A program made the translations under genes and the position numbers. From assembly GCA_036785705.1 (NCBI GenBank), contig JAWUZG010000160.1:660519-724518 (forward strand): 64,000 nucleotides of DNA, in the 5' to 3' direction. A model generated the notes under the pieces. That model did not search any database, was not told where the DNA came from, and saw nothing but the letters and a program-made list of their open reading frames with translations. This stretch comes from Acanthornis magna (lineage: Eukaryota; Chordata; Aves; Passeriformes; Acanthizidae). Positions 10,130 through 63,987 of the stretch are shown here, in pieces. Numbering within the stretch: position 1 is the stretch's first letter; every line of letters starts with the position of its first letter.

Positions 10130-12247
10130 CACTGACCCCAATCCCTGACCCCATATCCCTGTATCCCCACCGGTGCCAGATCCCACTGACCCCAATCCCT
10201 GGCCCTGTATCCCTGTATCCCTGACCCCATATCCGTGTGTCCCCAGGTGCCCATGGCGGGCCGGAAGTGCAGTGGTGACAATGACACGGCCATGTCTCAC
10301 TCCAGTCCCTGACCCCATATTCCCTGACCCCATATCCCATTTCTGTGTCCCCATGGCAAGCTGGAAGCGCAGCAGTGAGTGATGGGACTGTCTCCCACTC
10401 CAGTCCCTGACCCTATATCCCCTGACCCCGTGTCCCCCTGACCCCATGTCCCCCTGACCCTATATCCCCCTGCCCCCATGTCCCCCTGACCCCATGTCCC
10501 ATTCCCGTGTCCCCCGGTGCCCCCGGTGGGCCAGAAGCACGGTACTGGTGGCACTGGTTGCTCTGGTGCGGTGCCGTGGCCAAAGGAGCGCGGCGAGTAG
10601 GATCAGGGCCTGACCCCATGTCCCATTGTCCCCAGGTGCCCATGGTGGGCTGGAAGCGTGGCCCTGGTGGCCCTGGTGGTGGCCCTGGCACGGTGCCATG
10701 GCTGGAGGAGCACAGCGAGTGCCAGCAGGGCCTGACCCCATATCCCCCTGACCCCATATCCTCCTGACCTCATATCCTCCTGACCTCATATCCCATTGTC
10801 CCCATTGTCCCCATTGTCCCCAGGTGCCCGTGGCGGGCTGGAAGTGCAGTGGTGGCAGTGAGGTCCCACTCCAGTCCTTGACCCCATACCCCCCTGACCC
10901 CATATCCCATTCCCGTGTCCCCAGGTGCCCATGGCAGGCCGGAAGCGCGGCACAGATGGCAGTGGTGGCCCTGGCGGTGGCCCCGGTGGCTCAGTTCCGT
11001 GGCCGGAGGAGCGCGGCGAGCGCGAGCAGGGCCTGACCCCATATTGCATTGTCCCCATTGTCCCCAGGTGCCCATGGCGGGCTGGAAGTGCAGTGGTGAC
11101 AATGACAAGGCCATGTCCCTCTCCAATCCCTGACCCCATATCCGTGTGTCCCCAGGTGCCCATGGCGGGCTGGAAGTGTGGCAGTGACAATGACAGGGCC
11201 ATGTCTCACTCCAATCCCTGACCCCATGTCCTGTTGTCCCCATTGTCCCCAGGTGCCCATGGCGGGCCGGAAGTGTGGCGCTGGTGGCAGTGGTGGCCCT
11301 GGCGGTGGCCCCGGTGGCTCAGTTCTGTGGCCGGAGGAGTGTGGCGAGCGCGAGCAGGGCCTGACCCCATATCCCATTGTCCCCATTGTCCCCAGGTGCC
11401 CATGGCAGGCCAGAAGTGTGGCGCTGGTGGCAGTGGTGGCCCTGGCTCAGTTCTGTGGCCAGAGGAGCGCAGCGAGGACGAGCAGGGCTTGACCCCATAT
11501 CCCATTGTCCCCATTGTCCCCAGGTGCCCATGGCAGGCCAGAAGCACGGCGCTGGTGGCAGCGGTGGCCCCGGCGGTGGCCCTGGCTCAGTTCTGTGGCC
11601 AGAGGAGTGCAGCGAGCGCGAGCAGGGCCTGTCCCCATATCTGTGTGTCCCCATACCCCCCTGACCCCATATCCCATTGTCCCATTGTCCCCAGGTGCCC
11701 ATGGCGGGCCGGAAGCGCGGCGCAGGTGGCAGCGGTGGCCCCGGTGGCTCAGTTCCGTGGCCGGAGGAGCGCGGCGAGCACGAGCTGGGACTGACCCCAT
11801 GTCCCCTGACCCCATATCCCATTCCCATGTCCCCAGGTGCCCATGGCGGGCTGGAAGTGTGGCAGTGACAATGACAGGGCCATGTCTCACTCCATGTCCT
11901 CACAACCATGTCCTGTTGTCCCCATTGTCCCCAGGTGCCCATGGTGGGCCGGAAGTGTGGCGCAGGTGGCAGTGGTGGCCCTGGCGGTGGCCCCGGTGGC
12001 TCAGTTCTGTGGCCGGAGGAGTGTGGCGAGCGCGAGCAGGGCCTGACCCCATATCCCATTGTCCCCATTGTCCCCAGGTGCCCATGGCGGGCCAGAAGCA
12101 CTGCGCTGGTGGCAGCGGTGGCCCCAGCGGTGGCCCTGGCTCGGTTCCGTGGCCGGAGGAGCGCGGCAAGCACGAGCAGGGCCTGTCCCCATATCTGTGT
12201 GTCCCCATATCCCCTGACCCCATATCCCATTGTCCCATTGTCCCCAG
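10130..12247 (+). repeat. Array of copies of the DEDD first-coding-exon 5' edge
   Basis: About 15 copies of CCCCAGGTGCCCATGGCGGG (acceptor, six-base leader, start codon) lie upstream of the real exon. They are near 10,253, 10,349, 10,642, 10,820, 10,930, 11,073, 11,160, 11,257, 11,400, 11,530, 11,700, 11,840, 11,940 and 12,085. Many continue through the Gly-rich stretch to GAGCAGGGCCTG, then switch to the spacer ACCCCATATCCCATTGTCCC instead of TACTCCCTGCACC. Unit length is 90-180 bp. Confidence 0.92.
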
Positions 12248-12614
12248 GTGCCCATGGCGGGCCGGAAGCGCGGCGCAGGTGGCAGCGGTGGCCCCGGCGG
12301 TGGCCCCGGTGGCTCGGTTCCGTGGCCGGAGGAGCGCGGCGAGCGCGAGCAGGGCCTGTACTCCCTGCACCGCATGTTCGACATCGTGGGCGCGCAGCTG
12401 ACGCACAGGGACGTGCGCGTGCTCTCCTTCCTCTTCGTGGACGTGCTGGACGAGGCCGAGCGCGGCCGCATCCGCTCGGGCCGCGACTTCCTGCTGGCGC
12501 TGGAGCGGCAGGGCCGCTGCGACGAGAGCAACCTGCGGCAGCTGCTGCAGCTGCTGCGCATCATCACCCGCCACGACCTGCTGCCCTACGTCAGCCTCAA
12601 GAGGAGGCGGCCCG
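12248..12614 (+). CDS. DEDD: DEDD first coding exon (start codon and death effector domain)
   Basis: The acceptor AG is at 12,246-12,247 and the ATG at 12,254, six bases into the exon, so an upstream non-coding exon is implied. The exon codes MAGRKRGAGG through the whole death effector domain to KRRRP. The donor GTGAGT is at 12,615, phase 1. This start matches the conserved MAG N-terminus of the family. Confidence 0.93.
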
Positions 12615-15600
12615 GTGAGTGATGTATCGCGATATATTGCGGTATGTCGTGATATGGGAGTCTTTATCGTGATATATGGGGTCATTGTCGTGATATACTG
12701 CAATGTATGGGCTCACATCATCACCCGCCACGACCTGCTGCCCTACGTCAGCCTGAAAAGGAGACGGCCCGGTGAGTGATATATCGCGATATATCGTGAT
12801 ATGGGGGGGATAGGGTCACATCATCACCCGCCACGACCTGCTGCCCTACGTCAGCCTGAAAAGGAGACAGCCCGGTGAGTGCCGTCGCAATATGTCGTGA
12901 TATGGGCGGGATATGGGGGTCATTGTCATGATATACTGCAATGTGTGGGGTCACATCATCACCTGCCACAATCTGCTGCCCTACGTCAGCCTCAAGAGGA
13001 GGCGGCCCGGTGAGTGATGTATCGCGATATATTGCGATATGGGGGTAGTTATCGTGATACATGGGGTCATTGTCGTGATATACTGCAATGTATGGGGTCA
13101 CATCATCACCCGCCACGACCTGCTGCCCTACGTCAGCCTCAAGAGGAGGCGGCCTGGTGAGTGATACGTCGCGATATATCGTGATATGGGGGTTATTATC
13201 ATGATATACTGTAATGTATGGGGTCACATCATCACCCACCACGACCTGCTGCCCTATGTCAGCCTGAAAAGGAGGCGGCCTGGTGAGTGATATATCGCGA
13301 TATATCGTGATATGGGGGTTATTATCATGATATACTCTAATGTATGGGGTCACATCATCACTCTCCACAACCTGCTGCCCTACATCAACCCAAAAAGAAG
13401 GTAGCCCGGTGAGTGCTGTCGTGATATGTCGTGATATGTCGCGATATATCACAATATATCGCAATATGGGGGTCATTAGCGTGATATACTGTAATGTATG
13501 GGGTCGCATTATCACCTGTCACGACCTGCTGCCCTACGTCAGCCTCGAGAGATGGTGAGTCTGTCATGATATATCGCGATATGGGGGGGATAGAGTCACA
13601 TCATCACCCGCCATGACCTGCTGCCCTATGCCAGCCTGAAAAGGAGACGGCCGGATGAGTGCTGTTGCGATATATCACGATAGAGTGGGATAGGGTCACA
13701 TCAGCACCCGCCACGACCTCCTGCCCTACCTCAGTCTCAGGAGATGATAGCCAGGTGAGTCTGTCATGATATATCGCGATACGGGGGGAATAGGGTCACC
13801 TGCCACAACCTGCTGCCCTACGTCAGCCTCAAATGGAGACAGCCCGGTGAGTGCTGTCACGATATATTGCGATAAGGGGGTCGTTATCGTGGTATGTAGG
13901 GTGGTATTGTGATATGTGGGGTCACAGCATCACCTGCCCTGACCTGCTGCCCTACCTCAGGCTGAGTGGGAGACGGCCTGGTGAGTGTCTGTTGTGATAT
14001 ATCGCGACATGGGGGGTCATTATTGCGATATATGGGGGTGTATGGGGTCAGTGGGGTCACATCATCACCCACCATGACCTATGGCAGCCTGAAGAGATGG
14101 TGGCCAGGTGAGCATCTGTCACGATATATCGCGATATGGGCTGGTGGTGTCCTACACGAGTCTGGTGTGCTGTGTCACCTCTCCAGCAGTGTCAGGCTGG
14201 CAGGTGCCCTATGTCACGATAGGCCGCCCTATAACATTGCAACAGGCCACCCTATAGCATCACGACAGGCCGCCCTCTAATGTTGTGATAGGCCGCCCTG
14301 TGATATCGTGATAGGCCGCCCTATAACGTTGTGATAGGCTGCCCTATAACGTTACAATAGGTTGCCCTATAATGTCGCGATAGGCTGCCCTGTGACATTG
14401 CGATAGGCCATCCTGTGGCATCGTGATAGGCCACTCTATAGCGTCGCGATAGGCCGCCCTATAACATCATGATAGGCTGCCCTACAACATTGCGATAGGC
14501 TGCCCTATAATATTGCGATAAGCTGCCCTATAACATCATGATAGGCTGCCCTACAACATTGCGATAGGCCACCCTGTGACACTGCGATAGGCTATCCTGT
14601 GACATCGCAATAGGCTGCCCTATAACATTGCGATAGGTTGCTCTGTAGCGTTGCCCTAGGCTGTTCTCTATCGCGATAGACCGTTCTCTATCGTGGCAGG
14701 CTGCCTTATATCGCGATAGACTGTTCTCTATCATGGCAGGCTGTCATATATCGCGATAGACCGTTCTCTATCATGGCAGGCTGCCCTATATCGCGATAGA
14801 CCGTTCTCTATCATGGCAGGCTGCCCTATATCGCGATAGGCTGTCCTCTATCATGGTAGGCTGCCTTATATCGCGATAGACTGCTCTCTATCATGGCAGG
14901 CTGCCCTATATCGCGATAGACTGTTCTCTATCATGGTAGGCTGGCCTATATCGCGATAGGCTGTCCTTTATCATGACAGGCTGCCCTATATCGCGATAGG
15001 CTGTCCTTTATCATGACAGGCTGCCCTATATCGCGATAGGCCACTCTGTGCCACCCCTCCAGGGGCCCTGGGCAGGTGAGTGAGCACAGAGCCCTGAGCT
15101 GTGCCTGGGGATCGGGATCGGGATTGGGATCAGGGTCAGGATCGGGGTCGGGATCAGGGTTGGGATCGGGATCAGGGTCAGGACTGGGATGGGGCCAGGG
15201 CTGTCGGGACAGTCCCAGGTCAGTCCCAGGTTTTGGGGTCCCCTGTGGGATTTTTCCTGTGCCGTCCTGATGCCATCCCTGTGCCATCCCAACGACAGTC
15301 CTGGTGCCATTCCTGTGCTATTCCCTGTGCTATCCCAATGACATTCCCAGTGCCATCCCAATGACATCCTGGTGCCATCCCAATGACATTCCTGTGCCAT
15401 CCCAATGACGTTCCAATGCCATTGCTGTGCCATCCCAATGACATTTACAGTGCTATCCCAGTGACATCCCGGTGCCATCCTGATGACATTCCTGGTGTCA
15501 TTGCTATGCCATTTCCTGTGCCAACCCAGTGACATCCCGATGACAATCCCTGTGCCATCTGGGTGCCATTCCCATGCCATCCCAGTGCCATCCCGATGAC

Positions 15601-18600
15601 ATTCCCATGCCATTCCCAGTGCCGTTCCTGTGCCATCCCAATGACATTCCCTGTGCCATCCCGATGGCATTCTTGTGCCATTCACTGTGCCATCCCAGTG
15701 CCATTCCCTGTGCCATCCCGATACATTCCTGTGCCATCCCGGTGCCACCCCGGTGCCACCCCGCTGACGCTGGCGCTGTCCCCGCAGTGTGCCCGGACCT
15801 GGTGGACAAGTACCTGGAGGAGACGTCCATCCGCTATGTGACCCCCCGTGCGCCAGGGGGCGCTCCGCCCGGCCTCGGCCACCCCCACAAATCAGGTCAG
15901 GGTCACCACCCCCTTTGGGATTGTCACCTTCCTTCGGGGTCATCATCCTCCCCCTTTGGGATTGTCACCTCCCTTTGGGGTCACCACCCCCACAAATCAG
16001 GTCAGGGTCACCACCCCCTTTGGGATTGTCACCTTCCTTCGGGGTCACCACCCCCCTTAGGGGCACCACCCCCACAAATCAGGTCAGGGTCACCTCCCCC
16101 TTTGGGATTGTCACCTCCCTTTGGGGTCATCATCCCCCCGCTTTGGGATTGTCACCTCCCTTTGGGGTCATCATCCCCCCGCTTTGGGATTGTCACCTCC
16201 CTTTGGGGTCACCACCCCCCTTGGGGTCACCACCCTCTTTGGGATTGTCACCTCCCTTTGGGGTCATCATCCCCCTTGGCGTCACCACCCCCACAAATCA
16301 GGTCAGGGTCACCACCCCCTTTGGGATTGTTGCCTCCCTTTGGGGTCACCGTCCCCGCTTTGGGGTCACCATCCCCCCTTCTGGAATTGTCACCTCCCCT
16401 TTAGGGTCACCCTCCCCCTTTGGGGTAACCATCATCTCCCTTCGGGGTCACCATCCCTCTTTGGGGTCACCATCCTCCCCTTGGGGTCACCATCCCCCTT
16501 GGGGTAACCATCATCTCCCTTCGGGGTCACCATCCCCCCTTGGAGTCACCAACCCCCTTTTGGGATTGTCACCTCCCTTCGGGGTCACCATCACGCCCCT
16601 TGGGGTCACTATCCCCCTTTAGTGTCATCATCCCCCCCTTTGGGGTCACTATCCCCTTTTGGGGTCATCACCCCCTCTTTGGGATAAACCCCTCTCCCTT
16701 GGGGTCACCATCCCCCCTTTGGGATCATCGTCACCCCCCTTTAGAATCGTCACTGTCCCCCTTTGGGGTCACCATCCCCCCTTTGCAATCATTGTCACCT
16801 CCCCTTTTGGGGTCATCCCCCCTTTGGGATCATCACCCCTTTGGGGTGGTAACCCCCCACCCATCCCTGTCCTGCCCCCTGGGATGGGATTTGGGGTTTC
16901 TGGGGTGGGATTTGGGGTTCCCTATGGGATTTGGGGTCCCTCAGCCCGCTGTCCCCCCACCCCAGTGCCTGCCCCCCACCCGTCGCTGTGCTGCCCCCCA
17001 GGGTGGGATTTGGTGTGTCTGGGGTGGGATTTGGGGTCCCTGGATGGATTTGGGGTTCTCTATCAGATTTGGGGTCTGTGGGGTGGGATTTGGGGTCCCT
17101 CACCCCGTTTATCCCCCCACCCCAGTGCCTGCCCCCCACCCGTCGCTGTGCTGCCCCCCGGGGGGGCCCCAGCTGGGCCCCAAGCGCCAGGGCCGCGCCC
17201 GGAGCCTCCTCGGGAACCAACGGAAACGCAGGAAGTCAGCGACCCCCGACCCGAAAGAGAAACAGACCTGCGGTGAGAGGATGGGAATGTGGGATTGGGA
17301 ATGGGGAATGTGGGAAATATGGGATTGGGAATGGGATTGGGAATAGATCCTAAAGAGAAACAGACCTGCGGTGAGAGGATGGGAATGTGGGATTGGGAAT
17401 GGGGAATGTGGGATTGGGAATGGGGAATGTGGGATTGGGGAATGTGGGATTGGAGAATATGGGATTGGATCCCAAAGAGAAACAGACCTGCGGTGAGAGG
17501 ATGGGAATGTGGGATTGGGGAATGTGGGATTGGGGAATGTGGGAAATGTGGGATTGGGAATAGATCCTAAAGAGAAACAGACATGCAGTGAGAGGATGGG
17601 AATGTGGGATTGGGGATGTGGGATTGGGGAATGGGATTGGGAATGGGATTGGGGAATATGGGATTTGGAATAGATCCTAAAGAGAAACAGACCTGCGGTG
17701 AGAGGGGATTGGGAATGGGAAATATGGGATTGGGAATGGGAATGTGGGATTGGGAATGGAATTGGGATTGGGGAATATGGGAATGGGATTGGATCTCAAA
17801 GAGAAACAGACCTGCAGTGAGAGGATGGGAGCGGGGAATATGGGATTGGGAATGGGAAGGGGGAATAGGGGAATTGGATTGGGGAATATGGGATTGGGAA
17901 TATGGGATTGGGAATCAGATTTGGAACAGGATTGGGATTGGGGAATATGGGATTGGGAATGGGAATGGGATTGGGAATGGATTCTAAAGAGAAACAGACC
18001 TGCGGTGAGTGAGATCAGGAATGGGATTGGGGAATATGGGATTGGGAATGGGAATGGGAAGAGGATTGGGAATGGGATTGGATCCCAAAGAGAAACAGAC
18101 CTGCGGTGAGAGAATGTGAAAATGTGGGATTGGGAATGGGGTTGGGATTGGGGAATACGGGAATGGGGTTGGATCCTAAAGAAAACTAGACCTGGGTGGA
18201 GTTGGGGATTTAGGGATCCATGGGATTGGGGGGATCCCTAAAATTGGGGGAATTCCTGGCTTTGGGGCAATCCCTGGGACTGGGAGAGTTTCCGGCATCA
18301 GGACATCGCTGGAATGGGAAGAATTCCCAGTTTTGGGGCTCCCTGCGAGGGGCAAACCTCCCCAAATCCCTCACCCTACAACTCAGAGCCAGGCCTCCCT
18401 ATCCCACACCCTCCCACAATGCTAACAATCCCAAAAGCCCTAAATCCCCATTTTCCTGCTCTAAATCCCCCAGTTTCCCCTAAATCTCCCATTTTCCCCC
18501 TAAATCCCCCCTAAACCCCCATTTCCCCCCCATTTCAGACATCCGCGTCCGCGCCGAGTCCTGCCAGCATTTTCTGCCCCCATTTACCCCTAAATCCCCC

Positions 18601-20340
18601 CAAAACCCCAATTTTCCCTCCCAAATCCCACATTCTTCCCCCTAAATCTCAGATTTCCCACCATAACCCCCGTTTTCCCCCGTTTCAGACATCTGCCTCC
18701 ACGTCCGCGCCGAGTACTGCCAGCATTTTCTGCTCTCATTTTCCCCCTAAATCCCTCATTTTCCCCTTTAAATATCCCCTAAATCCCCCATTCCCCCCCA
18801 AATCCCCCATTTTCCCCCCTAAATCCCAGGTTTTCCCCCCCTAAATCCCCATTTTCTCCCCGTTTCAGACATCCGCCTCCGCGTCCGCGCCAAGTACTAC
18901 CAGCATTTTCTGCCCCCATTTTCCCCTAAATCCCCCCAAACCCCCAATTTCCCCCTAAATCCCACATTTCCCCCCCTAAATGCCCGTTTCCCCCCCGTTC
19001 CAGACATCCGTGTCCGCGCCGAGTACTGCCAGCATTTTCTGCCCCCATTTTCCCCTAAATCCCCCCAAAACCCCCATTTTCCCCCCTAAATCCCTGTTTT
19101 CTCCCCGTTTCAGACATCCGCCTCTGCGTCCGCGCCGAGTACTACCAGCATTTTCTGCCCCCATTTTCCCCCTAAATCCCTCATTTTCCACCTAAATCCC
19201 CCATTTTCCCTCCCAAATCCCACATTTTTCCTCCTAAATCCCAGATTTTCCCCCCTAAACCCCGTTTTCTCCCCGTTCCAGACATCCGCCTCCGCGTCTG
19301 CGCCGAGTACTGCCAGCGTTTTCTGCCCCCATTTTCCCCCTATATCCCCCATTTCCCCCCTAAATTACCCCCAAATCCCATATTTCCCCCCTAAATCCCC
19401 CCTAAATCCCAAATTTCCCCCCTAAATCCCCGTTTTCTCCCCGTTCCAGACATCCGCCTCCGCGTCCGCGCCGAGTACTGCCAGCATTTTCTTACCCCCA
19501 TTTTTCCCCCTAAATCCCCCATTTCCCCCCCAAATCCCCCATTTTACACCTAAATTCCCCCCAAATCCCTTATTTCCCCCCTAAATCCCCCATTTTCCTC
19601 CACATTTCCCCCCCTAAATCCCCATTTTCTCCCTGTTTCAGACATCCGCCTCTGCGTCCGCGCCAAGTACTGAGAGCATTTTCTGCCCCCATTTTCCCCC
19701 CAAATCCCCCATTTTCCACCTAAATCCCCTAATTTCCTCCTAAATCCCATATTTCCCCCCAACCCCCGTTTTCTCCCCGTTCCAGACATCCGTCTCTGCG
19801 TCTGCACCGAGTACTGCCAGCGTTTTCTGCCCCCATTTTCCTACTAAATCCCCCATTCCCCCCCCAAATCCCCCATTTTCCCCCCTAAATCCCATATTTT
19901 CTCCCCTAAATCCCCCCTAAACCCCCATTTTCCCCCCTAACCCCCGTTTTCTCCCCGTTCCAGACATCCGCCTCCGCGTCCGCGCCGAGTACTGCCAGCA
20001 CGACTCCGCCCTGCACGGCAACGTCTTCTCCAACAAGCAGGAGCCTCTGGAGCGACAATTCGAGCGCTTCAACCAGGCCAACACCATCCTGAAATCGCGC
20101 GACCTGGGCTCCATCATCTGTGACATCAAATTCTCGGAGCTCACCTACCTCGACGCCTTCTGGCGCGATTACATCAACGGCTCGCTGCTCGAGGCGCTCA
20201 AGGGCGTCTTCATCACGGACTCGCTCAAACAGGCCGTGGGCCACGAGGCCATCAAGCTGCTGGTCAACGTGGACGAGGAGGATTACGAGCTGGGCCGCCA
20301 GAAACTCCTCAGGAACTTGATGCTCCACACGGCTCCCTGA
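12254..20340 (+). CDS. DEDD: DEDD, death effector domain-containing protein (four coding exons)
   Basis: Seen: joining 12,254-12,614, 15,788-15,895, 17,126-17,272 and 19,964-20,340 gives an open frame of 330 residues with canonical GT/AG sites and matching phases (all three introns phase 1). The human protein is 318 residues. Residues about 35-113 form the death effector domain (GLYSLHRMFDIV, then FLLALERQGRCDESN and RIITRHDLLPYV). A basic nuclear-localisation region (NQRKRRK) precedes TPDPKEKQTC, which favours DEDD over DEDD2. The C-terminal exon holds the conserved region from DIRLRVRAEYC to LLRNLML. Known for the family: a nuclear/nucleolar protein linked to death-receptor and caspase signalling and to restraint of Cdk1/cyclin B1. 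Odd: compared with mammals, residues about 6-21 contain a Gly-rich insertion, and every exon edge facing an intron has spawned tandem copies. The gene lies tail to tail with NIT1. The family call is secure; the exact 5' UTR is not. Confidence 0.95.
12615..14115 (+). repeat. Array of copies of the DEDD first-coding-exon 3' edge with donor
   Basis: About 12 copies of the last 50 or so exon bases (CGCCACGACCTGCTGCCCTA to CGGCCCGGTGAGTG) follow the real donor, near 12,720, 12,825, 12,960, 13,105, 13,230, 13,355, 13,515, 13,605, 13,705, 13,800, 13,935 and 14,070. Spacers are built from TATCGCGATAT and TCGTGATATGGG. Confidence 0.93.
14190..15050. repeat. Palindrome-rich array (CGATAGGC / TATCGCGATA)
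   Basis: The left half has about 24-bp units of GCGATAGGCTGCCCTATAAC. The right half has about 36-bp units joining CTATATCGCGATAGG to CTATCATGGCAGGCTGCC. The 10-bp palindrome TATCGCGATA recurs about ten times. Confidence 0.92.
15100..15200. repeat. Short GGGATC/GGGTCA tandem repeat
   Basis: Six-base units GGGATC, GGGATT and AGGATC repeat over about 90 bp. Confidence 0.8.
15270..15750. repeat. Minisatellite, unit about 20 bp
   Basis: Units resemble GTGCCATCCCAATGACATTC. It lies just upstream of DEDD coding exon 2. Confidence 0.9.
15788..15895 (+). CDS. DEDD: DEDD coding exon 2
   Basis: The acceptor CCCGCAG ends at 15,787. The exon codes VCPDLVDKYLEETSIRYVTP, a stretch nearly identical to mammalian DEDD, then a short Gly/Pro-rich tail ending HPHKS. 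The donor GTCAGG at 15,896 is non-consensus at +3, but it is the form repeated in the downstream array. Confidence 0.93.
15896..16860 (+). repeat. Array seeded at the DEDD exon 2 donor
   Basis: CCCCCACAAATCAGGTCAGG, the last exon bases plus donor, recurs near 15,985, 16,069 and 16,288. The rest are spacer units CTTTGGGATTGTCACCTCCC and TTTGGGGTCATCATCCCCC. Confidence 0.9.
16861..17125 (+). repeat. Copies of the DEDD exon 3 5' edge
   Basis: The acceptor plus TGCCTGCCCCCCACCCGTCG and following bases at 16,963-17,001 match the real exon start at 17,122-17,160. A more diverged copy lies near 16,857. Spacer: GGGGTGGGATTTGGGGT. Confidence 0.88.
17126..17272 (+). CDS. DEDD: DEDD coding exon 3 (basic nuclear-localisation region)
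   Basis: The acceptor is CCCCAG at 17,120-17,125. The exon codes VPAPHPSLCCPPGG, then a basic run with RQGRARSLLGNQRKRRK, then TPDPKEKQTC. The donor GTGAGA is at 17,273, phase 1. A near-identical copy of the first 35 or so bases with its own acceptor lies at 16,963-17,001. Confidence 0.93.
17273..18195 (+). repeat. Array of copies of the DEDD exon 3 3' edge with donor
   Basis: Eight further copies of AAAGAGAAACAGACCTGCGG followed by TGAGAGG lie near 17,352, 17,473, 17,569, 17,674, 17,799, 17,987, 18,087 and 18,178. Spacers are of GGGAATGTGGGATTGGGAAT. Most keep a GTGAG donor. Confidence 0.93.
18200..18536. other. Mostly unique DNA inside DEDD intron 3
   Basis: The left part is GGGATTGGGG-type and the right part is C/A-rich CCTAAATCCCCCATTTTCCC. 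No gene is seen. Confidence 0.5.
18537..19963 (+). repeat. Array of copies of the DEDD exon 4 acceptor and 5' edge
   Basis: Nine copies of CAGACATCCGCCTCCGCGTC through GAGTACTGCCAGCA precede the real one, near 18,537, 18,686, 18,867, 19,003, 19,111, 19,280, 19,448, 19,640 and 19,784. After CCAGCA the copies switch to TTTTCTGCCCCCATTTTCCC, an acceptor-like pyrimidine tract. Confidence 0.94.
19964..20340 (+). CDS. DEDD: DEDD last coding exon
   Basis: The acceptor is CAG at 19,961-19,963. The exon codes DIRLRVRAEYCQH and continues through ERFNQANTILKSRDLGSII and LLVNVDEEDYELGRQKLL to the TGA at 20,338. Only this copy of the repeated DIRLRVRAEYC edge continues into the conserved C-terminus, so it is the real exon. 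Confidence 0.95.
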
Positions 20341-23300
20341 GGGATCCGGGATTTTTCCCGGTTTTTCCCGTTTTTTTTTCTCCCCGGGGGTTTTTCCCGG
20401 TTTTTTTTTTTCCGTTTTTTTTTTTTTTTTTTTTTTTCTCTCCCCCTCGGTTTTCCGGCGCCTCTGGCGGCCCGCACGTGGATTGAGGGGGGTTGGAGGT
20501 GTGGGATGTTCCGGGATTTGGAGCTTTTTCGGGGGTTCCTGTTGGGTTCTCCTTGTGTTTTTCCATGGGTTTTCCCCTCCTGTTCTCCCGCTCCTCGTTT
20601 TTCTTTTGTATCCATTAAAAACGGCGACGAAAAGGCAAAATTCCCATTGGTGAACATGAGATTTGGGGATTGGAGGTGTGGGAAGCATTGGAAAAATGGA
20701 ATATTCCAGAATTCGTTTCATTTTCCCTGTCAATTCTTTATTCTTTTTGGGTTTTCCGTGATTTTTTCCCATTTTCTGTTCTTTCGTATCCATTAAAAAC
20801 GGCAACGAAAAGGAGAAAATGCCATTGGTGAAACGCTCCAGGATTTGGGGATTTCAGGTGTGGGAAGCATTGGAAAAATGGAATATTCCAGAATTCTCAT
20901 TTTCCTGTCAATTTCTTCTTCTCCTCGCGTTTTCGATTATTTTTTCCCCATTTTCTGTTCTTTTGTATCCATTTAAAAAGGCAGAAAAAAAGGCAAAAAC
21001 GCCATTGGTGAAAAGCTCCAGGATTTGGGGATCGGAGGTGCGGGAAGCCCTGGAAAAACGGAATATTCCGGGTTGGAGGTGTGGGATGTTCCGGGATTTG
21101 GAGCTTTTTCGGGGGTTCCTGTTGGGTTCTCCTTGTGTTTTTCCATGGGTTTTCCCCTCCTGTTCTCCCGCTCCTCGTTTTTCTTTTGTATCCATTAAAA
21201 ACGGCGACGAAAAGGCAAAATTCCCATTGGTGAACATGAGAGATGCGCTGAGATTTGGGGATTGGAGGTGTGGGAAACATTGGAAAAATGGAATATTCCA
21301 GAATTCTCATTTTCCTGTCAATTTCTTCTTCTCCTCGCGTTTTCGATTATTTTTTCCCCATTTTCTGTTCTTTTGTATCCATTTAAAAAGGCAGAAAAAA
21401 AGGCAAAAACGCCATTGGTGAAAAGCTCCAGGATTTGGGGATCGGAGGTGCGGGAAGCCCTGGAAAAACGGAATATTCCGGGTTGGAGGTGTGGGATGTT
21501 CCGGGATTTGGAGCTTTTTCGGGGGTTCCTGTTGGGTTCTCCTTGTGTTTTTCCATGGGTTTTCCCCTCCTGTTCTCCCGCTCCTCGTTTTTCTTTTGTA
21601 TCCATTAAAAACGGCGACGAAAAGGCAAAATTCCCATTGGTGAACATGAGAGATGCGCTGAGATTTGGGGATTGGAGGTGTGGGAAACATTGGAAAAATG
21701 GAATATTCCAGAATTCTCATTTTCCTGTCAATTTCTCCTTCTCCTCGCATTTTCAATGATTTTTTTTTCCCCATTTTCTGTTCTTTTGCATCCATTTAAA
21801 ACGGCAGAAAAAAAGGCAAAATTCCCATTGGTGAAAAGCTCTGGGATTTGGGGATTGGAGAGGTGTGGAAAGCATTGGAAAAATGGAATATTCCAGAATT
21901 CTTTTCATTTTCCCTGTCAATTCTTTATTCTTTTTGGGTTTTCCGTGATTTTTTCCCATTTTCTGTTCTTTCGTATCCATTAAAAACGGCAACGAAAAGG
22001 AGAAAATGCCATTGGTGAAACGCTCCGGGATTTGGGGATTTCAGGTGTGGGAAGCATTGGAAAAATGGAATATTCCAGAATTTCTCATTTTCCTGGTGAT
22101 TCCTCATTCTCCTTGGTTTTTTCCATTATTTTTTCCCATTTTCTGTTCTTTTTTATCCATGAAAAACGGCGACGAAAAGGCAAAGTTCCCATTGGTGCAG
22201 CGCGGTGGGATTGGGGATTGGAGGTGTGGAATATTCCAGAATTCCTCATTTTCCTGTCAATCCTTTTTTCTCTTTCTGTTTTCCGTGATTTTTCTCTCCT
22301 TTTTCCCCATTTTCTGTTCTTTCGTATCCATTAAAAACGGCAGAAAAAAAGGCGAAAATGCCATTGGTGAAACATTTTGGGATTTGGGGATTGGAGGCGT
22401 GGGAAGCATTGGAAAAATGGAATATTCCAGAATTCTTCTCATTTTCCCTGTCAATTCTTTCTTCTTTTTGGGTTTTCCATGATTTTTTCCCATTTTCTGT
22501 TCTTTCGTATCCATTAAAAACAGCAGAAAAAAGGCGAAAATCCCTTTGGTGAAACATTTTGGGATTTGGTGATTTCAGGTGTGGGAAGCATTGGAAAAAT
22601 GGAATATTCCAGAATTCTCATTTTCCTGTCAATTTCTTCTTCTCCTCGCGTTTTCGATTATTTTTTCCCCATTTTCTGTTCTTTTGTATCCATTTAAAAA
22701 GGCAGAAAAAAAGGCAAAAACGCCATTGGTGAAAAGCTCCAGGATTTGGGGATCGGAGGTGCGGGAAGCCCTGGAAAAACGGAATATTCCGGGTTGGAGG
22801 TGTGGGATGTTCTGGGATTTGGAGCTTTTTCGGGGGTTCCTGTTGGGTTCTCCTTGTGTTTTTCCATGGGTTTTCCCCTCCTGTTCTCCCGCTCCTCGTT
22901 TTTCTTTTGTATCCATTAAAAACGGCGACGAAAAGGCAAAATTCCATTGGTGAACATGAGATTTGGGGATTGGAGAGGTGTGGGAAGCCCTGGAAAAACG
23001 GAATATTCCAGAATTCTTTTCATTTTCCCTGTCAATTCTTTATTCTTTTTGGGTTTTCCGTGATTTTTTCCCATTTTCTGTTCTTTCGTATCCATTAAAA
23101 ACGGCAACGAAAAGGAGAAAATGCCATTGGTGAAACGCTCCAGGATTTGGGGATTTCAGGTGTGGGAAGCATTGGAAAAATGGAATATTCCAGAATTTCT
23201 CATTTTCCTGGTGATTCCTCATTCTCCTTGGTTTTTTCCATTATTTTTTCCCATTTTCTGTTCTTTTTTATCCATGAAAAACGGCGACGAAAAGGCAAAG

Positions 23301-24500
23301 TTCCCATTGGTGCAGCGCGGTGGGATTGGGGATTGGAGGTGTGGAATATTCCAGAATTCCTCATTTCCCTGTCAATTCTTTCTTCTCTTTGTGTTTTCTG
23401 TGATTTTTCTCTCCTTTTTCCCCATTTTCTGTTCTTTCGTATCCATTAAAAACGGCAGAAAAAAAGGCAAAAATGCCATTGGTGAAACATTTTGGGATTT
23501 GGGGATTGGAGAGGTGTGGAAAGCATTGGAAAAATGGAATATTCCAGAATTCTTTTCATTTTCCCTGTCAATTCTTTCTTCTTTTTCGGTTTTCCGTGAT
23601 TTTTTCCCATTTTCTGTTCTTTTGTATCCATTAAAAACGGCAACAAAAAGGCAAAATTCCCATTGGTGAAACATTTTGGGATTTGGGGATTTCAGGTGTG
23701 GGAAGCATTGGAAAAATGGAATATTCCAGAATTCCTCCTCATTTTCCTGACAATTTCTTTTTATGTTTTCCATGATTTTTCCCCATTTTCTGTTCTTTCG
23801 TATCCATTAAAAACGGCAGAAAAAAAAGGCAAAATTCCCATTGGTGACCACGAGAGGTGCGCGGGGATTTGGGGGATCGCAGGTGTGGAATATTCCAGAA
23901 TTCCTCACTTTTCCCTGTCAATTCCTCCTTATGTTTTCTGTGATTTTTCGCTCTTTTTTCCTCATTTTCTGTTCTTTCGTATCCATTAAAAAGGGCGACA
24001 AAAAGGCAAAATTCCATTGGTGAAACTCTCTGGGATTTGGGGGATCGGAGGTGTGGAAAGCTCTGGAAAAATGGAATATTCCAGAATTCCTCCTCATTTT
24101 CCTGACAATTTCTCTTTATGTTTTCCATGATTTTTTCCCCATTTTCTCTCCTTTTGTATCCATTAAAAACAACAGAAAAAAGGCAAAATTCCCATTGTGA
24201 ATGTGAGGCAGAGTGGGAAGTGTTGGAAAAATGGAATATTCTGGAATTCCTCACTTTTCCCTGTTCATTCTTCAATCTCCTTGCGTTTTCCTTAATTTTT
24301 CTCTTTTTTCCTCCCATTTTCTCTTCTTTTATATTCATTAAAAACGGCGACAAAAAGGCGAAAATCCTTTGGTGAAATGCTCTGGGATTTGGGGTTTTGA
24401 GGTGTGGAAAATTCCAGAATTCCTCATTTTTTCCTGTGTCAATTCCTCCTTTTCCTTGTGTTTTCCATGTTTTTTCCATTAAAACGACGAAAAACGGCGA
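20341..24500 (+). repeat. 4-kb satellite carrying the DEDD poly(A) signal
   Basis: Units of about 135-220 bp run through CATTTTCTGTTCTTTCGTAT, CCATTAAAAACGGC, AAAATTCCCATTGGTGAAAC, GGGATTTGGGGATTGGAGGT and GGAATATTCCAGAATTC. About 20 units are present. Higher-order structure is visible: a 410-bp block near 20,900-21,310 is repeated almost exactly at 21,310-21,720, and a block starting near 22,006 recurs at 23,121. ATTAAA is kept in many units and altered to TTTAAA or TGAAAA in others. Confidence 0.93.
20614..20619 (+). terminator. DEDD: Candidate DEDD poly(A) signal ATTAAA
   Basis: This is the first ATTAAA after the DEDD stop (about 275 bases), in GTATCCATTAAAAACGGCGA. The same element is repeated about 20 times downstream, so cleavage could occur at several sites. 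Confidence 0.6.
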
Positions 24501-24950
24501 TTTCCCCCCAAAATTCCCTTTTTCCTTCCCAAAATCCCCCAAAAATTCCCATTTCCCTCCAAAACGCAACATTTTTTCCCATTTTCTCTGTTTTTCTCCC
24601 CATTCCTGCCCCTCGCCCCCCAAATTCTTCCACTCTTTGGGGTCATTTTCTGGGATTTTTGTATTTTTCAAATTTTAACAGAAGGAAATTCCTCCCCCCC
24701 CCAGGACCCCAAAAAAGGGAAACCCCCCAAAAATGGGGGAAACCTCCCAAAAAAAGGGGAGGGGAGCCCTGAGCCACCCCATTTTGGGGAGAAAAGCACT
24801 GATTTTGGGCAAATTCGGGTAAATTTTCGGGTGCCGCTGTCACCTCGGGGTGAGCTCCGAAATTGGGGGGACCCCAAAAGGAGAGAAGGACCCCAAAAGG
24901 AGAGGAGGACACTTTGTGCTGTTCCATTTTGGGGATAAAAGTGCTGATTT
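24501..24950. other. Mostly unique A/C- and G-rich DNA
   Basis: Poly-A-interrupted C-rich stretches (CCCCCAAAAATGGGGGAAAC) and a short GGACCCCAAAAGGAGAG duplication are present. No gene is seen. Confidence 0.5.
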
Positions 24951-26520: not shown

Positions 26521-28161
26521 ACAGGTCCCCACAGATGTCCCCTCAGATGTCCCCTCGTGTCCCCTCACGTCACCCCAGGTCCCCACAGATGTCCCTGCTG
26601 TCACCCCAGGGTCCTGCAGATGTCCCCTAATGTCCCCTGGTGTCTCTGCTGTCACCCCAGGTCCCCATGGCTGTCCCCTCATGTCACCCCAGGTGTCTGT
26701 GGATGTCCCTTCACGTCACTGCAGTGTCCCCTAGACGTCCCCTCATGTCCCCTGAGGTCACCGCAGTGTCCCGCAGACATCCCCTCGTGTCCCCACTGTC
26801 ACCCCAGGGTCCCACAGATGTCCCCTGAGGTCACCGCAGGGTGCCGTGGACGTCCCCTCAGGTCACCCCAGGTCTCCGTAGATGTCCCCTCATGTCCCCA
26901 GTGTCCCCTCGTGTCCCCAGTGTCCCCTCGTGTCCCCGGTGTCACCGCAGTGTCCCATAGATGTCCCCGCAGATGTTCCCTCATGTCACCCCAGGGTCCC
27001 GTGGCTGTCCCTACTGCTGTCACCGCAGTGTCCGTAGATGTCCCCTCGTGTCCCCTCATGTCACCCCAGGGTCCTGTAGATGTCCCCTCATGTCCCCACT
27101 GTCACTGCAGGTCCCTGTAGATGTCCCTGTGGCCGTCCCCACTGTCACCCCAGGTCCCCGCAGATGTCCCCACTGTCACGGCAGTGTCCCACAGATGTCC
27201 CCTCGTGTCCCCACTGTCACCACAGGTTCCCGCAGATGTCCCCTCGTGTCCCCTCATGTCCTCAGTGTCACCGCAGTGTCCCACAGACATCCCCGCAGAT
27301 GTCCCCACTGTCATGGCAGTCCATGTCCATAGATGTCCCCTCGCGTCCCCTCATGTCCCTGCTGTCACCCCAGGGTCCCATGGCTGTCCCCAGTGTCACC
27401 GCAGCTCCCTGTAGACGTCCCCACTGTCCCCTCCTGTCCCTGCTGTCACCGCAGCTCCCCGTGGCTGTCCCCAGTGTCCCGTGGCTGTCCCCTCATGTCC
27501 CCAGTGTCACCGCAGCTCCCTGTGGCTGTCCCCGCAGTGTCCCTGCTGTCACCGCAGCTCCCCGTAGATGTTCCCACTCTCATCCCAGTGTCACCGCAGT
27601 GTCCCCACTGTCACCCTAGTGTCCCCAGTGTCACCGCAGCTCCCCGTGGCTGTCCCCGCTGTCCCTGCAATGTCCCCGCTGTCACCACAGCTCCCCATGG
27701 CTGTCCCCAGTGTCACCGCAGCTCCCCGTGGCTGTCCCAGCTGTCACCCCAGTGTCCCATGGCTGTCCCTAGTGTCACCGCAGCTCCCCATAGATGTCCC
27801 CACTGTCCCCTCATGTCCCCGCTGTCACCGCAGCTCCCCGTGGCTGTCCCCAGTGTCCCGTGGCTGTCCCCGCAGTGTCCCCAGTGTCACCCCAATGTCC
27901 CCGGTGTCACCGCAGCGCTCCGTAGATGTCCCCAGTGTCCCCTCCTGTCCCCGCTGTCACTGCAGCTCCCCATAGATGTCCCCACTCTCACCCCAGTGTC
28001 ACCGCAGTGTCCCCACTGTCACCCCAGTGTCCCTGCTGTCACCGCAGCTCCCCATAGATGTCCCCACTCTCATCCCAGTGTCACCCCAGTGTCCCCAGTG
28101 TCACCGCAGCTCCCCATAGATGTCCCCAGTGTCCCGTGGCTGTCCCCTCATGTCCCCGCTG
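26521..28161 (-). repeat. Array of copies of the NIT1 C-terminal/stop region
   Basis: Units of about 25-45 bp read TGTCACCGCAGCTCCCCGTA and GATGTCCCCAGTGTCC on the plus strand. On the minus strand these are copies of GGGGACGTCTACGGGGAGCT then GCGGTGACA, the last NIT1 codons and stop. Similarity to the real end increases towards 28,161. Confidence 0.88.
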
Positions 28162-28416
28162 TCACCGCAGCTCCCCGTAGACGTCCCCGCGGCGGTGGCC
28201 GTGCACGGGCAGCTGTTGGCGCACCTGGCGCAGGTAGCTGAGGTCGAGGTGTGCCAGGCACAGCCCTGGCCCCTCGTGGCACTGTGCCACCACCGCGCCC
28301 CAGGGGTCAGCCACCAGCGAGTGACCGAAGGAGGCGCGGCCAGCGTGGTGCCACCCGCTCTGCGCCGCGGCCACCACGTAGCACTGGCACTCGATGGCAC
28401 GGGCGCGCAGCAGCAC
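28162..28416 (-). CDS. NIT1: NIT1 last coding exon
   Basis: Minus strand: acceptor CCCCAG then GTGCTGCTG. It codes [34 protein letters not shown] and [15 protein letters not shown], ending GDVYGELR with TGA at 28,164-28,162. The last codons and stop belong to the unit repeated downstream. Confidence 0.94.
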   Translation of the reverse strand: MLLRARAIECQCYVVAAAQSGWHHAGRASFGHSLVADPWGAVVAQCHEGPGLCLAHLDLSYLRQVRQQLPVHGHRRGDVYGELR

Positions 28417-37259: not shown

Positions 37260-37400
37260 CACTCAAGATGGCGCCTCTCCCGCCTCACCCGAGTCAAAGA
37301 TGGCGGCCGGAAGTTGCGGGTCCGTTTCCGGTCGGGACCGGAAGTGACTGCCCCGTTTCCGGTCGGGACCGGAAGAGGCGGAGCCGCGCGGGAAAAGATG
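37260..37400. promoter_or_regulatory. Bidirectional NIT1/PFDN2 promoter
   Basis: Between divergent genes, this block is CpG-dense and non-repetitive. CCGGAAGT (ETS type) occurs at 37,307 and 37,338, with a CCGGAAG at 37,369. AAGATGGCG elements (YY1 type) occur at 37,265, 37,297 and at the PFDN2 start codon. A 31-bp unit containing TTTCCGGTCGGGACCGGAAG is tandemly doubled at 37,324-37,375. On the minus strand CTCGG|GTGAGG at 37,289/37,288 is a plausible donor for a non-coding NIT1 exon 1. No TATA box is seen. Confidence 0.75.
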
Positions 37401-37460
37401 GCGGAGCCGGGGAAGGGGCGAGGGACGGCCCCGGCGGGGAAAGGGCTGACTGCGGAACAG
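37398..37460 (+). CDS. PFDN2: PFDN2 exon 1
   Basis: The ATG at 37,398 sits in AAAAGATGGCGG, so the start codon overlaps a YY1-type AAGATGGCGG element. It codes MAEPGKGRGTAPAGKGLTAE plus Gln. The donor GTCAGG is at 37,461, phase 0. Confidence 0.93.
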
Positions 37461-43400: not shown

Positions 43401-45714
43401 TTTCCTGTTTTTTCCCAATTTCTCCGTTTTTCCCCCCAGATCTCCAAGCTGATCGAGGCTCTGGCGCAGCAGCTGCAGGCCAAGGGTCGCGAGCTGACTG
43501 AGTTTCATTTTCCCAATTTCCAATTTCCAATTTTCCCAATTTTGGGTTTTTTCTCCCCAGATCTCCAAGCTGATCGAGGCTGTATTTCCCCAATTTCCAT
43601 TTTTCCCAATTTTCCCAATTTCCCCATTTTCTCCCCAGATTTCCAAGCTGATCAAGGCTGTTTTTTCCCAATTTTGGGTTTTTTCCCCCCAGATCTCCAA
43701 GCTGATCGAGGCGCTGATATTTTCCTATTTTTTCCCAATTTCCCAATTTCCAATTTTCCCAATTTTTCCATTTTTCTCCCCAGATCTCAAAGCTGATCGA
43801 GGCTGTATTTCCCCAATTTCCAATTTTCCCAAATTTCCCGTTTTTCCCCCCAGATCTCCAAGCTGATTGAGCTCTGGCGCAGCAGCTGCAGGCCAAGGGT
43901 CGCGAGCTGACCGAGTTTCATTTTCCCAATTTCCCAATTTCCAATTTTCCCATTTTTTCCCGTTTTCTCCCCAGATCTCCAAGCTGATCGAGGCGGTATT
44001 TCCCCAATTTCCAATTTTCCCAATTTTGGGTTTTTTCCCCCCAGATCTCCAAGCTGATCGAGGCTGTATTTCCCCAATTTCCAATTTTCCCAAAGTTCCT
44101 GTTTTTCCCCCCAGATCTCCAAGCTGATCGAGGCTGTTTTTTCCCAATTTTGGGTTTTTTCCCCCCAGATCTCCAAGCTGATTGAGGCGCTGATATTTTC
44201 CTGTTTTTTCCCAATTTCCCAATTTCCAATTTTCCCACTTTTTCCATTTTTCTCCCCAGATCTCGAAGCTGGTCGAGGCTGTTTTTTCCCAATTTCCCAA
44301 TTTCCAATTTTCCCAATTTTGGGTTTTTTCTCCCCAGATCTCCAAGCTGATCGAGGCTGTATTTCCCCAATTTCCATTTTTCCCAATTTTCCCAATTTCT
44401 TCATTTTCCCTCCAGATCTCCAAGCTGATCGAGGCGCTAATATTTTCCTGTTTTTTGCCCAATTTTTCCCATTTTTCCCCCCTAATTTCCAAGCTGACCG
44501 AGTTTCATTTTCCCAGTTTCCAATTTTCCCAAATTTCCCGTTTTTCTCCCCAGATCTCCAAGCTGATCAAGGCTATTTTTTACCAATTTTGGGTTTTTTC
44601 CCCCCAGATCTTGAAGCTGATCAAGGCTGTATTTTCCCAATTTCCATTTTTCCCAATTTCCCCATTTTCTCCCCAGATCTCCAAGCTGATCGAGGCTGTT
44701 TTTTCCCAATTTCTCCGTTTTTCTCCCCAGATCTCCAAGCTGATCGAGGCGCTGATATTTTCCTGTTTTTTCCCAATTTCTCCATTTTTCCCCCCAGATC
44801 TCAAAGCTGATCGAGGTTGTATTTCCCCAATTTCCATTTTTCCCAATTTCCAATTTTCCCAATTTTGGGTTTTCTCTCCCCAGATCTCCAAGCTGATCGA
44901 GGCACTGATATTTTCCATATTTTCTTGTTTTTTCCCAATTTTTCCATTTTTCCCCCCAGATCTCCAAGCTGATCGAGGCTGTATTTCCCCAATTTCCAAT
45001 TTTCCCAATTTCCCATTTTTCCCCCCAGATCTCCAAGCTGATTGAGCTCTGGCGCAGCAGCTGCAGGCCAAGGGTCGCGAGCTGACCGAGTTTCATTTTC
45101 CCAATTTCCAATTTTCCCATTTTTTCCCGTTTTCTCCCCAGATCTCCAAGCTGATCGAGGCTGTATTTCCCCAATTTCCAATTTTCCCAATTTCTCCGTT
45201 TTTCTCCCCAGATCTCCAAGCTGATCGAGGCTGTTTTTTCCCAATTTTGGGTTTTTTCCCCCCAGATCTCCAAGCTGATCGAGGCGCTGATATTTTCCTG
45301 TTTTTCCCCAATTTCCCAATTTCCAATTTTCCCAATTTCTCCGTTTCTCTCCCCAGATCTCCAAGCTGATCGAGGCACTGATATTTTCCATATTTTCCTG
45401 TTTTTTCCCAATTTCTCCGTTTCTTTCCCCAGATCTCCAAGCTGATCGAGGCGCTGATATTTTCCCAATTTCTCCGTTTTTCTCCCCAGATCTCCAAGCT
45501 GATCGAGGCTGTTTTTTCCCAATTTTGGGTTTTTTCCCCCCAGATCTCCAAGCTGATCGAGGCGCTGGCGCAGCAGCTGCAGGCCAAGGGTCGCGAGCTG
45601 ACCGAATTTCGGGAGCGCCACAACATTCGCCTGGTGGGGGAGGACGACCCCAAAGCGGCGCGGGACGGCCCCGAGGGGGGCAAGGGGGGCTCCGCGGGGG
45701 TCCTGGTGTCCTGA
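37398..45714 (+). CDS. PFDN2: PFDN2, prefoldin subunit 2
   Basis: Seen: exons 37,398-37,460, 40,758-40,846, 41,942-42,065 and 45,544-45,714 join with correct phases into 148 residues (human 154). The protein begins MAEPGKGRGT, reaches TAEQVVSRFNRLRQDQRGLA, then ELELELNEHSLVIETLREV, RKCFRMVGGVLVERTVKEVL, and ends in the second coiled-coil arm with QLQAKGRELTEFRERHNIRL and an acidic/Gly-rich tail GVLVS. The layout is the beta-type prefoldin one: two coiled-coil helices joined by a hairpin around the GGVLVERTV segment. Known role: subunit of the hexameric prefoldin co-chaperone that passes unfolded actin and tubulin to the CCT chaperonin. Head to head with NIT1, as in human. AATAAA lies 51 bases past the stop. 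Odd: introns 1-3 are tandem repeats and intron 3 holds dozens of copies of the exon 4 start. Confidence 0.96.
37461..38515. repeat. Minisatellite in PFDN2 intron 1 (left)
   Basis: Units are GGGAATGAGGAGGGGTCTCT and GGGGTCCCTGGTACCGGGGA, about 20-35 bp. Confidence 0.9.
38520..39840. repeat. Minisatellite in PFDN2 intron 1 (middle), unit about 50 bp
   Basis: Units are GTGTCCCCATGTCCCCAGTG then GGATCCCACCCCAATCC. A block with AGTTCCCACAGCCAT recurs four or five times, giving a higher-order period of 190-400 bp. Confidence 0.9.
39850..40757 (+). repeat. Minisatellite merging into copies of the PFDN2 exon 2 acceptor edge
   Basis: Units are CCCAGTTGATCCCAGTCC and AGCTCTCCAATCCC. Towards exon 2, CCCCGCTCCTGCAGGTGGTG then TC appears near 40,648, with weaker copies near 40,430 and 40,545. 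They match the real CCCCGCTCCCGCAGGTGGTG at 40,744. Confidence 0.88.
40758..40846 (+). CDS. PFDN2: PFDN2 exon 2 (first coiled-coil arm)
   Basis: The acceptor CCCGCAG ends at 40,757. It codes VVSRFNRLRQDQRGLASKAA and ELELELNEH. The donor GTGGGA is at 40,847, phase 2. Confidence 0.94.
40847..41935. repeat. G-rich minisatellite in PFDN2 intron 2
   Basis: The left part is GGGGATTGGGGTTTGGGGGA units; the right part is GGATTTGGGGTGGGATTTGG units. It is strongly G-rich on the transcript strand, so G-quadruplex-prone. Confidence 0.9.
41942..42065 (+). CDS. PFDN2: PFDN2 exon 3 (hairpin core)
   Basis: The acceptor CCCCCAG ends at 41,941; the first base completes a Ser codon. It codes LVIETLREVDPTRKCFRMVG, GVLVERTVKEVLPALESNKE and Gln. 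The donor GTCTGG is at 42,066, phase 0. Confidence 0.95.
42100..42775. repeat. Minisatellite in PFDN2 intron 3 (left), unit about 23 bp
   Basis: Units are TGGGATCCCATAAAAATCCG with CAATGGAATCCC variants. Confidence 0.9.
42780..43068. repeat. Pyrimidine tract (TTTTCCCC)n
   Basis: Nearly pure C/T over about 250 bp, with CTCAAGCTGACCGAGCCCCA near 42,871 and CCCAAGTTGACCAAGCC near 43,045. These are weak relatives of the exon 4 edge. Confidence 0.88.
43069..45543 (+). repeat. Array of about 33 copies of the PFDN2 exon 4 acceptor and 5' edge
   Basis: Copies of CAGATCTCCAAGCTGATCGA, each after a C/T tract, occur every 50-120 bp. Examples are near 43,121, 43,236, 43,371, 43,438, 43,692, 43,973, 44,114, 44,337, 44,553, 44,882, 45,140, 45,264 and 45,490. 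Three copies (43,438, 43,852 and 45,029) run further into CAGCAGCTGCAGGCCAAGGG to GAGCTGAC.GAGTTTC. The rest switch after GAGGC to GTATTTCCCCAATTTCC or GCTGATATTTTCCTG. Confidence 0.95.
45544..45714 (+). CDS. PFDN2: PFDN2 exon 4 (second coiled-coil arm and C-terminus)
   Basis: The acceptor is CCCCCCAG. It codes ISKLIEALAQQLQAKGRELT, EFRERHNIRLVGED and a Gly-rich tail to TGA at 45,712. Only this copy of the repeated ISKLIEA edge runs on into NIRLVGED, so it is the real exon. Confidence 0.95.
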   Translation: MSKLIEALAQQLQAKGRELTEFRERHNIRLVGEDDPKAARDGPEGGKGGSAGVLVS

Positions 45715-45770: not shown

Positions 45771-45799
45771 CGGGAATTTGGGACAAGCCGGGGGTGATT

Positions 45800-47830: not shown

Positions 47831-47834
47831 ACCG

Positions 47835-49329: not shown

Positions 49330-49653
49330 CGGCCGTGTCGCCATCACCCCGAGGCTGGCCGCGCTCGGCGCGTGCCGGTGTCACCCAGTGTCACCCGCTG
49401 TCACCCGGTGTCACCCGCTGTCACCGCGCTCCGCTGTTGACTGCACACAGGGACACACCCGCGGTGTCACCTGTCCCCGCGCCCGGCCCGTGTCACCCCC
49501 GCCGTGTCCCCGCGGTGTCCCCGGGGGTGGGGACAGCGCTGTTGACTGCACACAGTGCCACACCTGCCGTGTCGCTTGTCGCCGGGCCCGGCCGGTTGTC
49601 ACCAGCGCCCGGGGCCATTTAACGGCGGTGCCACCGCGCGGGGTGGGGACAGC
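49330..49653 (+). promoter_or_regulatory. CpG-rich leader upstream of the ATP6V1A-like start, with an internal duplication
   Basis: This is a CpG-dense, mostly non-tandem stretch between a minisatellite and the ATG at 49,654. CTGTTGACTGCACACAG occurs twice, at 49,434 and 49,539, and the flanks are also similar. So roughly 105 bp of the promoter or leader is duplicated. No TATA box is seen. Confidence 0.5.

Positions 49654-63987
<14,334 letters not shown>

Follow-up and report, generated by a model that had tools for sequence, protein, structure and literature searches.

Coding-exon edges are copied into the adjoining introns of four neighboring genes in a passerine bird, Acanthornis magna (GenBank assembly GCA_036785705.1). 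This edge copying is real, although the wording in which an earlier note on the same DNA had described it was overstated. The pattern is already in print, and the window (the whole stretch of 64,000 bases that was analyzed) is a strong case of the phenomenon reported as exon stuttering. With a probability of roughly two in three, we read the arrays as border-spanning partial tandem duplications produced by random-breakpoint duplication and deletion, with the selection-protected exon edge lasting as the template.

Locus and gene models

The window takes up the final 64 kb, and so the end, of a contig of 724,518 bases (JAWUZG010000160.1, here C160). In gene content and order the contig resembles chicken chromosome 25, and its genes resemble those of human 1q21-23. 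Chicken chromosome 25 has been placed near, but outside, the ten dot chromosomes (Huang et al. 2023, PMC9974502). Most of the 724-kb contig is GC-rich and repeat-rich, and the host of the four neighboring genes is likely a bird microchromosome. The gene models used here were the following.

12248-12614, 15788-15895, 17126-17272, 19964-20340, + strand: DEDD, coding exons e2-e5
12248..12614, + strand: DEDD e2, first coding exon, source of acceptor-side and donor-side arrays; open frame, DED domain
28162-36038, - strand: NIT1, six exons
37398-45714, + strand: PFDN2, four exons
45544..45714, + strand: PFDN2 last exon (e4), source of the array 5' of the exon; open protein, Prefoldin subunit 2 match
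49654-63986, + strand: V-ATPase subunit A paralog, eleven exons; the gene runs past the contig end

Pfam domains were found in the four genes (DED, CN_hydrolase, Prefoldin_2, and ATP-synt_ab), and PDB matches were to Prefoldin subunit 2 and V-type ATPase subunit A. The names DEDD, NIT1, and ATP6V1A2 (for the V-ATPase paralog) are tentative assignments that agree with the domain matches. DEDD e2-e5 translate to an open 330-aa protein with a DED domain, and the frames of NIT1 (starting at an ATG in e3) and PFDN2 are likewise open from end to end. In the V-ATPase A paralog we observed several one-base frame breaks, some of them in or beside G runs (52205-52418, 54266-54401, 62031-62144, and 63870-63910). 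Because the three neighboring genes are open, these breaks are likely errors of the assembly consensus and not decay, and with such errors likely there, single-base differences in this gene are unsafe.

Exon edges are copied into the adjacent intron

The window was screened with the settings published for chicken, i.e., blastn-short with a length of at least 20 and at least 42.1 bits (PMC12954441). All 50 matches obtained were in sense orientation and in the intron adjoining the source exon (39 upstream and 11 downstream of it), with none in distal introns, in other genes, or on the minus strand in the window, and 20 shuffled sets put through the same screen gave no match. In 38 of the 50 matches (76%), the source edge was no more than 1 base away from the exon border. 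Positive introns numbered 12 of 23, or 11 of 21 when only introns between modeled exons were counted, since the 23 include two 5' flanks of a first modeled exon, one of them positive. The earlier note was right to discount random repeat insertion. Transposon insertion was rejected because matches are restricted to the source exon's own intron, and inverted copies were rejected in view of the zero minus-strand matches.

In an edge test, 30-base exon-only probes from 44 edges of the four genes were compared with the adjacent intron. At a score of at least 16, the exon's own edge was copied at 19/44 edges (43%), comprising 12 of 23 acceptors and 7 of 21 donors, and at a score of at least 15 the count was 20/44. 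The figure of about twenty edges given in the earlier note was therefore accurate, but its statement that most internal exon edges are copied was too strong. Mid-exon, reverse-complement, best non-adjacent intron, and shuffled controls each gave 0/44 at the cutoff of 16. The claim that copies of an acceptor edge precede the source exon and copies of a donor edge follow it was borne out, with no copies at a score of at least 16 in the opposite-side introns (0/38 edges). Altogether, 129 copies were found at 20 edges, counting the NIT1 e5 acceptor with its score of 15.

10247..12186, + strand: DEDD e2 acceptor edge, 13 copies, 24-118 exon bases, AG mostly kept
12711..14107, + strand: DEDD e2 donor edge, 10 copies, 33-62 exon bases plus donor
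15984..16301, + strand: DEDD e3 donor edge, 3 copies; CCACCCCC on both sides of the donor
16966..17007, + strand: DEDD e4 acceptor edge, 1 copy
17346..18195, + strand: DEDD e4 donor edge, 8 copies
18539..19821, + strand: DEDD e5 acceptor edge, 9 copies, 36-37 exon bases
28966..28996, - strand: NIT1 e7 acceptor edge, 1 copy
30060..30306, - strand: NIT1 e6 acceptor edge, 2 copies
30428..30651, - strand: NIT1 e5 donor edge, 2 copies
31324..31848, - strand: NIT1 e5 acceptor edge, 5 diverged copies; score 15, under the cutoff of 16
32728..33042, - strand: NIT1 e4 acceptor edge, 5 copies
34468..35584, - strand: NIT1 e3 acceptor edge, 6 copies (exon start with the ATG region)
43076..45509, + strand: PFDN2 e4 acceptor edge, 33 copies in two or more length classes (exon part about 20 and 67 bases)
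51995..52043, + strand: V-ATPase A paralog e3 acceptor edge, 1 copy
57458..57958, + strand: V-ATPase A paralog e6 donor edge, 7 copies
58028..58398, + strand: V-ATPase A paralog e7 acceptor edge, 4 copies
58704..58751, + strand: V-ATPase A paralog e7 donor edge, 1 copy, GT lost
58869..59664, + strand: V-ATPase A paralog e8 acceptor edge, about 10 short copies; the weakest edge, score 16, with many chance matches elsewhere
59968..60985, + strand: V-ATPase A paralog e8 donor edge, 6 copies
63439..63668, + strand: V-ATPase A paralog e11 acceptor edge, 2 copies, 53 exon bases

A tandem-repeat finder, proposed in the earlier note as a check, assigned 84.6% of the intron bases across the four genes to arrays; TRF coverage of three 5-kb samples from other contigs was 1.0, 0.8, and 7.5%. 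Exon bases were covered by TRF at 22% in the first 10 bases, falling to 0 past 70. A control with random non-exon anchors is uninformative here because 85% of the intron bases are array anyway. Edge copies made up 4,514 of 38,285 intron bases, and 54 of the 89 array families carried no exon copy. Very regular short arrays were also seen to fill introns without exon copies, at 54551-55243 (period 6, 116 copies) and 62152-62762 (period 7, 86 copies). For tandem units it is meaningless to say that they begin with the exon; what does hold is that they straddle the exon border.

Other genes on the contig and a paralog elsewhere

Edge copying recurred in further genes of the same contig. The 100 kb upstream of the window (C160 560519-660518) holds exons of genes that lay outside the view of the earlier note, named by eye as CELF3, MRPL9, TDRKH, RORC, a THEM gene, and S100A10, plus one unnamed gene, and Pfam agreed in the five pieces checked (RRM, Tudor, C4 zinc finger, 4HBT, and S_100). 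In human, the genes from CELF3 to S100A10 lie at 1q21.3. With flanks of up to 1.5 kb, 13/45 upstream edges were positive at a score of at least 20, where five controls gave 0; this set is cited at that cutoff, as at 16 or above there were control matches (one mid-exon, one reverse-complement, and two in other flanks). Most upstream genes share edge copying, while CELF3 had no positive edge.

A genome search located a second V-ATPase A gene, ATP6V1A, on an 18.15-Mb contig (C51). Its introns lie at the same places as those of the window paralog, its GC content was 0.42, and TRF covered 0% of 6,512 bases. None of the 14 edges of ATP6V1A had copies (best score, 11). At matched edges, the window gene had copies at 5/14 and ATP6V1A at 0/14 (p = 0.04, one gene pair).

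Anatomy and decay of the copies

The exon part of the 129 copies measured 14-118 bases (median, 25), and edges carried 1-33 copies each, with a single copy at four edges. Whole-exon duplication was rejected, since 0/129 copies held more than about 44% of the source exon. Identity between the exon part of a copy and the exon ranged from 70 to 100%, with distinct unit variants. The mismatches between exon and copy were mainly C to T and G to A (227/417), and copies lose GC relative to exons.

As the earlier note had foreseen, potential decoy splice sites are abundant: a search with exon-only cores recovered 156 copies, and 127 of these retained AG or GT. This set came with 382 background matches in non-adjacent introns, most of them produced by four cores of short length, namely those of the V-ATPase e8 acceptor (208), V-ATPase e6 donor (66), DEDD e3 donor (32), and NIT1 e4 acceptor (23). 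At the 16 low-background edges left without these four, the splice dinucleotide was kept in 96/119 copies (80.7%), against 80.6% expected if the two splice bases decay like the exon part. Retention thus equals the expectation from exon divergence, and the decoy sites give no indication that selection either maintains or removes them.

Codon positions were compared in 119 copies from 18 edges, leaving out two V-ATPase acceptor edges (e3 and e8) and dropping copies that scored <9 or had <75% identity. Variants carried by a minority of copies fell at codon positions 1/2/3 in 49/45/52 cases (p = 0.78). Among changes private to the exon, 8/11 were at third positions and 5/11 were nonsynonymous, and a test for synonymous change was not significant (p = 0.18). 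In a per-cell count, third positions differed most (12.8% versus 7.9 and 6.0%), but since such a count enters an exon-private change once per copy, we prefer the per-site variant count. These patterns fit an exon that is the constrained source and copies that are free DNA.

Borders without splice sites

Arrays were also found at borders that carry no splice site.

26570..28118, - strand: last 18 coding bases of NIT1 including the stop codon, 25 matches (at most 4 edits); reversed control, 2
20611..24377, + strand: unit that follows the end of the DEDD coding region, 21 copies, 15/21 with ATTAAA

The NIT1 array lies downstream of the gene and copies a protected border that has no splice site. 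Units downstream of DEDD are mostly about 180 bases apart, and their ATTAAA is presumably a polyadenylation-like signal, so that the units bearing it might offer alternative 3' ends. No copies were found at two further stop borders and two start borders that were checked.

Relation to exon stuttering and mirages

The earlier note knew of no published description of the pattern, which two literatures in fact provide. The older one, on amphioxus, includes an original Adh3 paper and a 2010 paper by Ebner and coworkers. A boundary VNTR exists in human CBS, for which our literature search found no paper.

Exon stuttering has been described in 115 genes and 236 introns of chicken, including 190/5,572 dot-chromosome introns (Hron et al. 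2026, GBE evag038, PMC12954441). As in that description, one flank of a coding exon recurs in the window, along with its splice donor or acceptor, within the intron next to it, and the source lies at the border; the introns are filled with tandem repeats; and the feature is absent from a paralog elsewhere. The ATP6V1A contrast repeats, for one pair, the chicken contrast of PHF8 and PHF2 (PMC12954441). The exon part measures 20-187 bases (median, 36) in chicken (PMC12954441), compared with the 14-118 bases (median, 25) recovered here by a looser search, and the share of matches with an edge within 1 base of the border is smaller here (76%) than in chicken, where it exceeds 90% (PMC12954441). 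With the same screen, 12/23 introns were positive here versus 190/5,572 on the chicken dot chromosomes (p = 3e-12), the present genes having been picked as striking and not at random. Our analysis extends stuttering to this contig at about fifteen times the intron share of chicken dot chromosomes, in a small and picked sample. In chicken, intron length varies between birds, and the mechanism of stuttering is speculated on only (PMC12954441); the main text of that paper contains neither the names of these genes, nor microhomology, nor the word mirage.

Mirages were reported in 2010 for the Adh3 and globin genes of amphioxus, as minisatellite-like duplications at either the 5' or the 3' intron-exon boundary, unstable in length, in which many units keep AG or GT (PMC3087553). 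The window shows such boundary duplication at 12/23 acceptors and 7/21 donors, with AG or GT in 127/156 copies, whereas the amphioxus cases are from a few genes of a cephalochordate (PMC3087553). Tandem repeats that cross a splice border, a possible source of new introns, are also known from human segmental duplicates, as internal tandem repeats located at exon-intron boundaries (PMC2812944), and from intron gain by tandem duplication (PMC4974935). Those repeats change the transcript, whereas in the window the frames of three genes stay open with a single copy of every exon, and the remaining copies are predicted to be intronic.

Origin of the arrays

Under the reading that we favor, a founding event would join exon interior to an intron motif with the aid of a few bases of microhomology, either by slippage or by microhomology end joining. 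Half an exon with a single splice site would be ignored by exon definition and thereby tolerated; a duplicated whole exon would be selected against. Intron sequence would then turn over, while the undeletable exon edge would refill the intron over time, and the copies nearest the exon would be the youngest. The exon edge should persist as a template because selection would remove events that damage it.

Non-exon context could be read at 12 of 34 junction classes, and 8 of these 12 showed microhomology of at least 3 bases, where 1.2 were expected; two of the 12 contexts resemble diverged exon copies, which brings the count to about 7/11 (PFDN2 dropped, 4 bases for DEDD e2). The clearest case is DEDD e3, where CCACCCCC flanks the donor on both sides. 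Such shared bases are compatible with slippage or with microhomology joining, without proving either.

An origin of the arrays solely by repeated meiotic gene conversion or unequal exchange, with the exon as just one more homogenized unit, is unlikely. It is one option named by Hron et al. 2026 (PMC12954441), and the rise of identity toward the exon speaks in its favor, as it also speaks for the exon as the source under our preferred reading: identity dropped with distance (mean rho -0.25, p = 0.008, 12 arrays; rho -0.22, p = 0.04, in nine low-background arrays), a gradient that is weak and opposite in the V-ATPase e7 acceptor array (rho +0.87), and whose p-values, like others computed on copies, are optimistic, since copies of one array share history and are not independent. 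Exchange nevertheless requires a pre-existing repeat, and it leaves new exon-intron junctions of several lengths unexplained.

Those several lengths could instead reflect exon borders that are true hot spots, where a splice-site-linked R-loop, stalled fork, G-quadruplex, or composition switch starts duplications; we consider this slightly less probable still. Nearly half of the edges are involved, and several have more than one junction class, such as PFDN2 e4 with about 20 and 67 bases, so that repeated capture is likely. We set this account, which corresponds to the idea in the earlier note that the exon border is the seed, against a coarse simulation where tandem duplications and deletions occurred at random and exon-damaging events were rejected. 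With no border-specific rate, this neutral, uniform-breakpoint model gave 29-89% positive edges and so reproduced the observed share. When the border rate was left free over 900 parameter sets, 37 of the 40 best fits lay at or below background, against a baseline of 624 of 896 usable sets that were already at or below it; a twofold excess appeared in 3/40 best fits, and a fourfold excess fitted badly, as did a tenfold deficit. The 40 best sets yielded 1.9-4.5 copies per intron compared to the 5.6 observed, a shortfall that favors a hot spot and leaves the neutral model incomplete. Acceptor and donor edges were alike (19/47 versus 13/42 in both gene sets at a score of at least 16, p = 0.38), the NIT1 stop codon and the ATTAAA unit behave in the same way, although the two other stop borders do not, and more than half of the array families (54/89) lack an exon copy altogether. 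Given the simulation, the acceptor-donor parity, and the borders without splice sites, the exon edge appears to be a lasting template and not a trigger, and the seed idea was not supported.

An assembly or sequencing artefact, i.e., a collapsed or stuttered consensus in GC-rich repeats, is highly improbable. The one-base frame breaks of the V-ATPase paralog, some in G runs, make residual errors likely, and the window lies at a contig end, but the 70 to 100% identity and the distinct unit variants are unlike simple stutter, the frames of DEDD, NIT1, and PFDN2 are open, and at one chicken gene, PHF8, the repeat structure was confirmed in raw nanopore data (PMC12954441). Least probable of all is a selected role of the copies, for example in tuning splicing through decoy sites or in providing reserve exons. 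Most copies do keep the splice dinucleotide (127/156), as do many units of amphioxus mirages (PMC3087553), but retention in the window equals the neutral expectation, copy-minority changes have no codon-position bias, no copy reaches half its exon, and amphioxus mirages seem by RT-PCR not to disturb regular splicing (PMC3087553).

Implications

Random duplication and deletion around protected exon edges thus remains our preferred reading of the arrays. Lasting templates at exon edges would imply that copies farther from the exon are older and that other protected borders carry arrays, with no special splice-site signal needed. The analysis ties chicken stuttering to the older amphioxus mirage literature and makes its open mechanism testable. 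More tentatively, and at somewhat less than even odds, exon edges and other protected sequence, such as stop codons and polyadenylation sites, may act in general as undeletable templates that steadily rewrite the introns of fast-turnover microchromosomes. If this is true, a single neutral source-and-sink process would unite chicken exon stuttering with amphioxus mirages, and intron content would be a by-product of purifying selection on exons.
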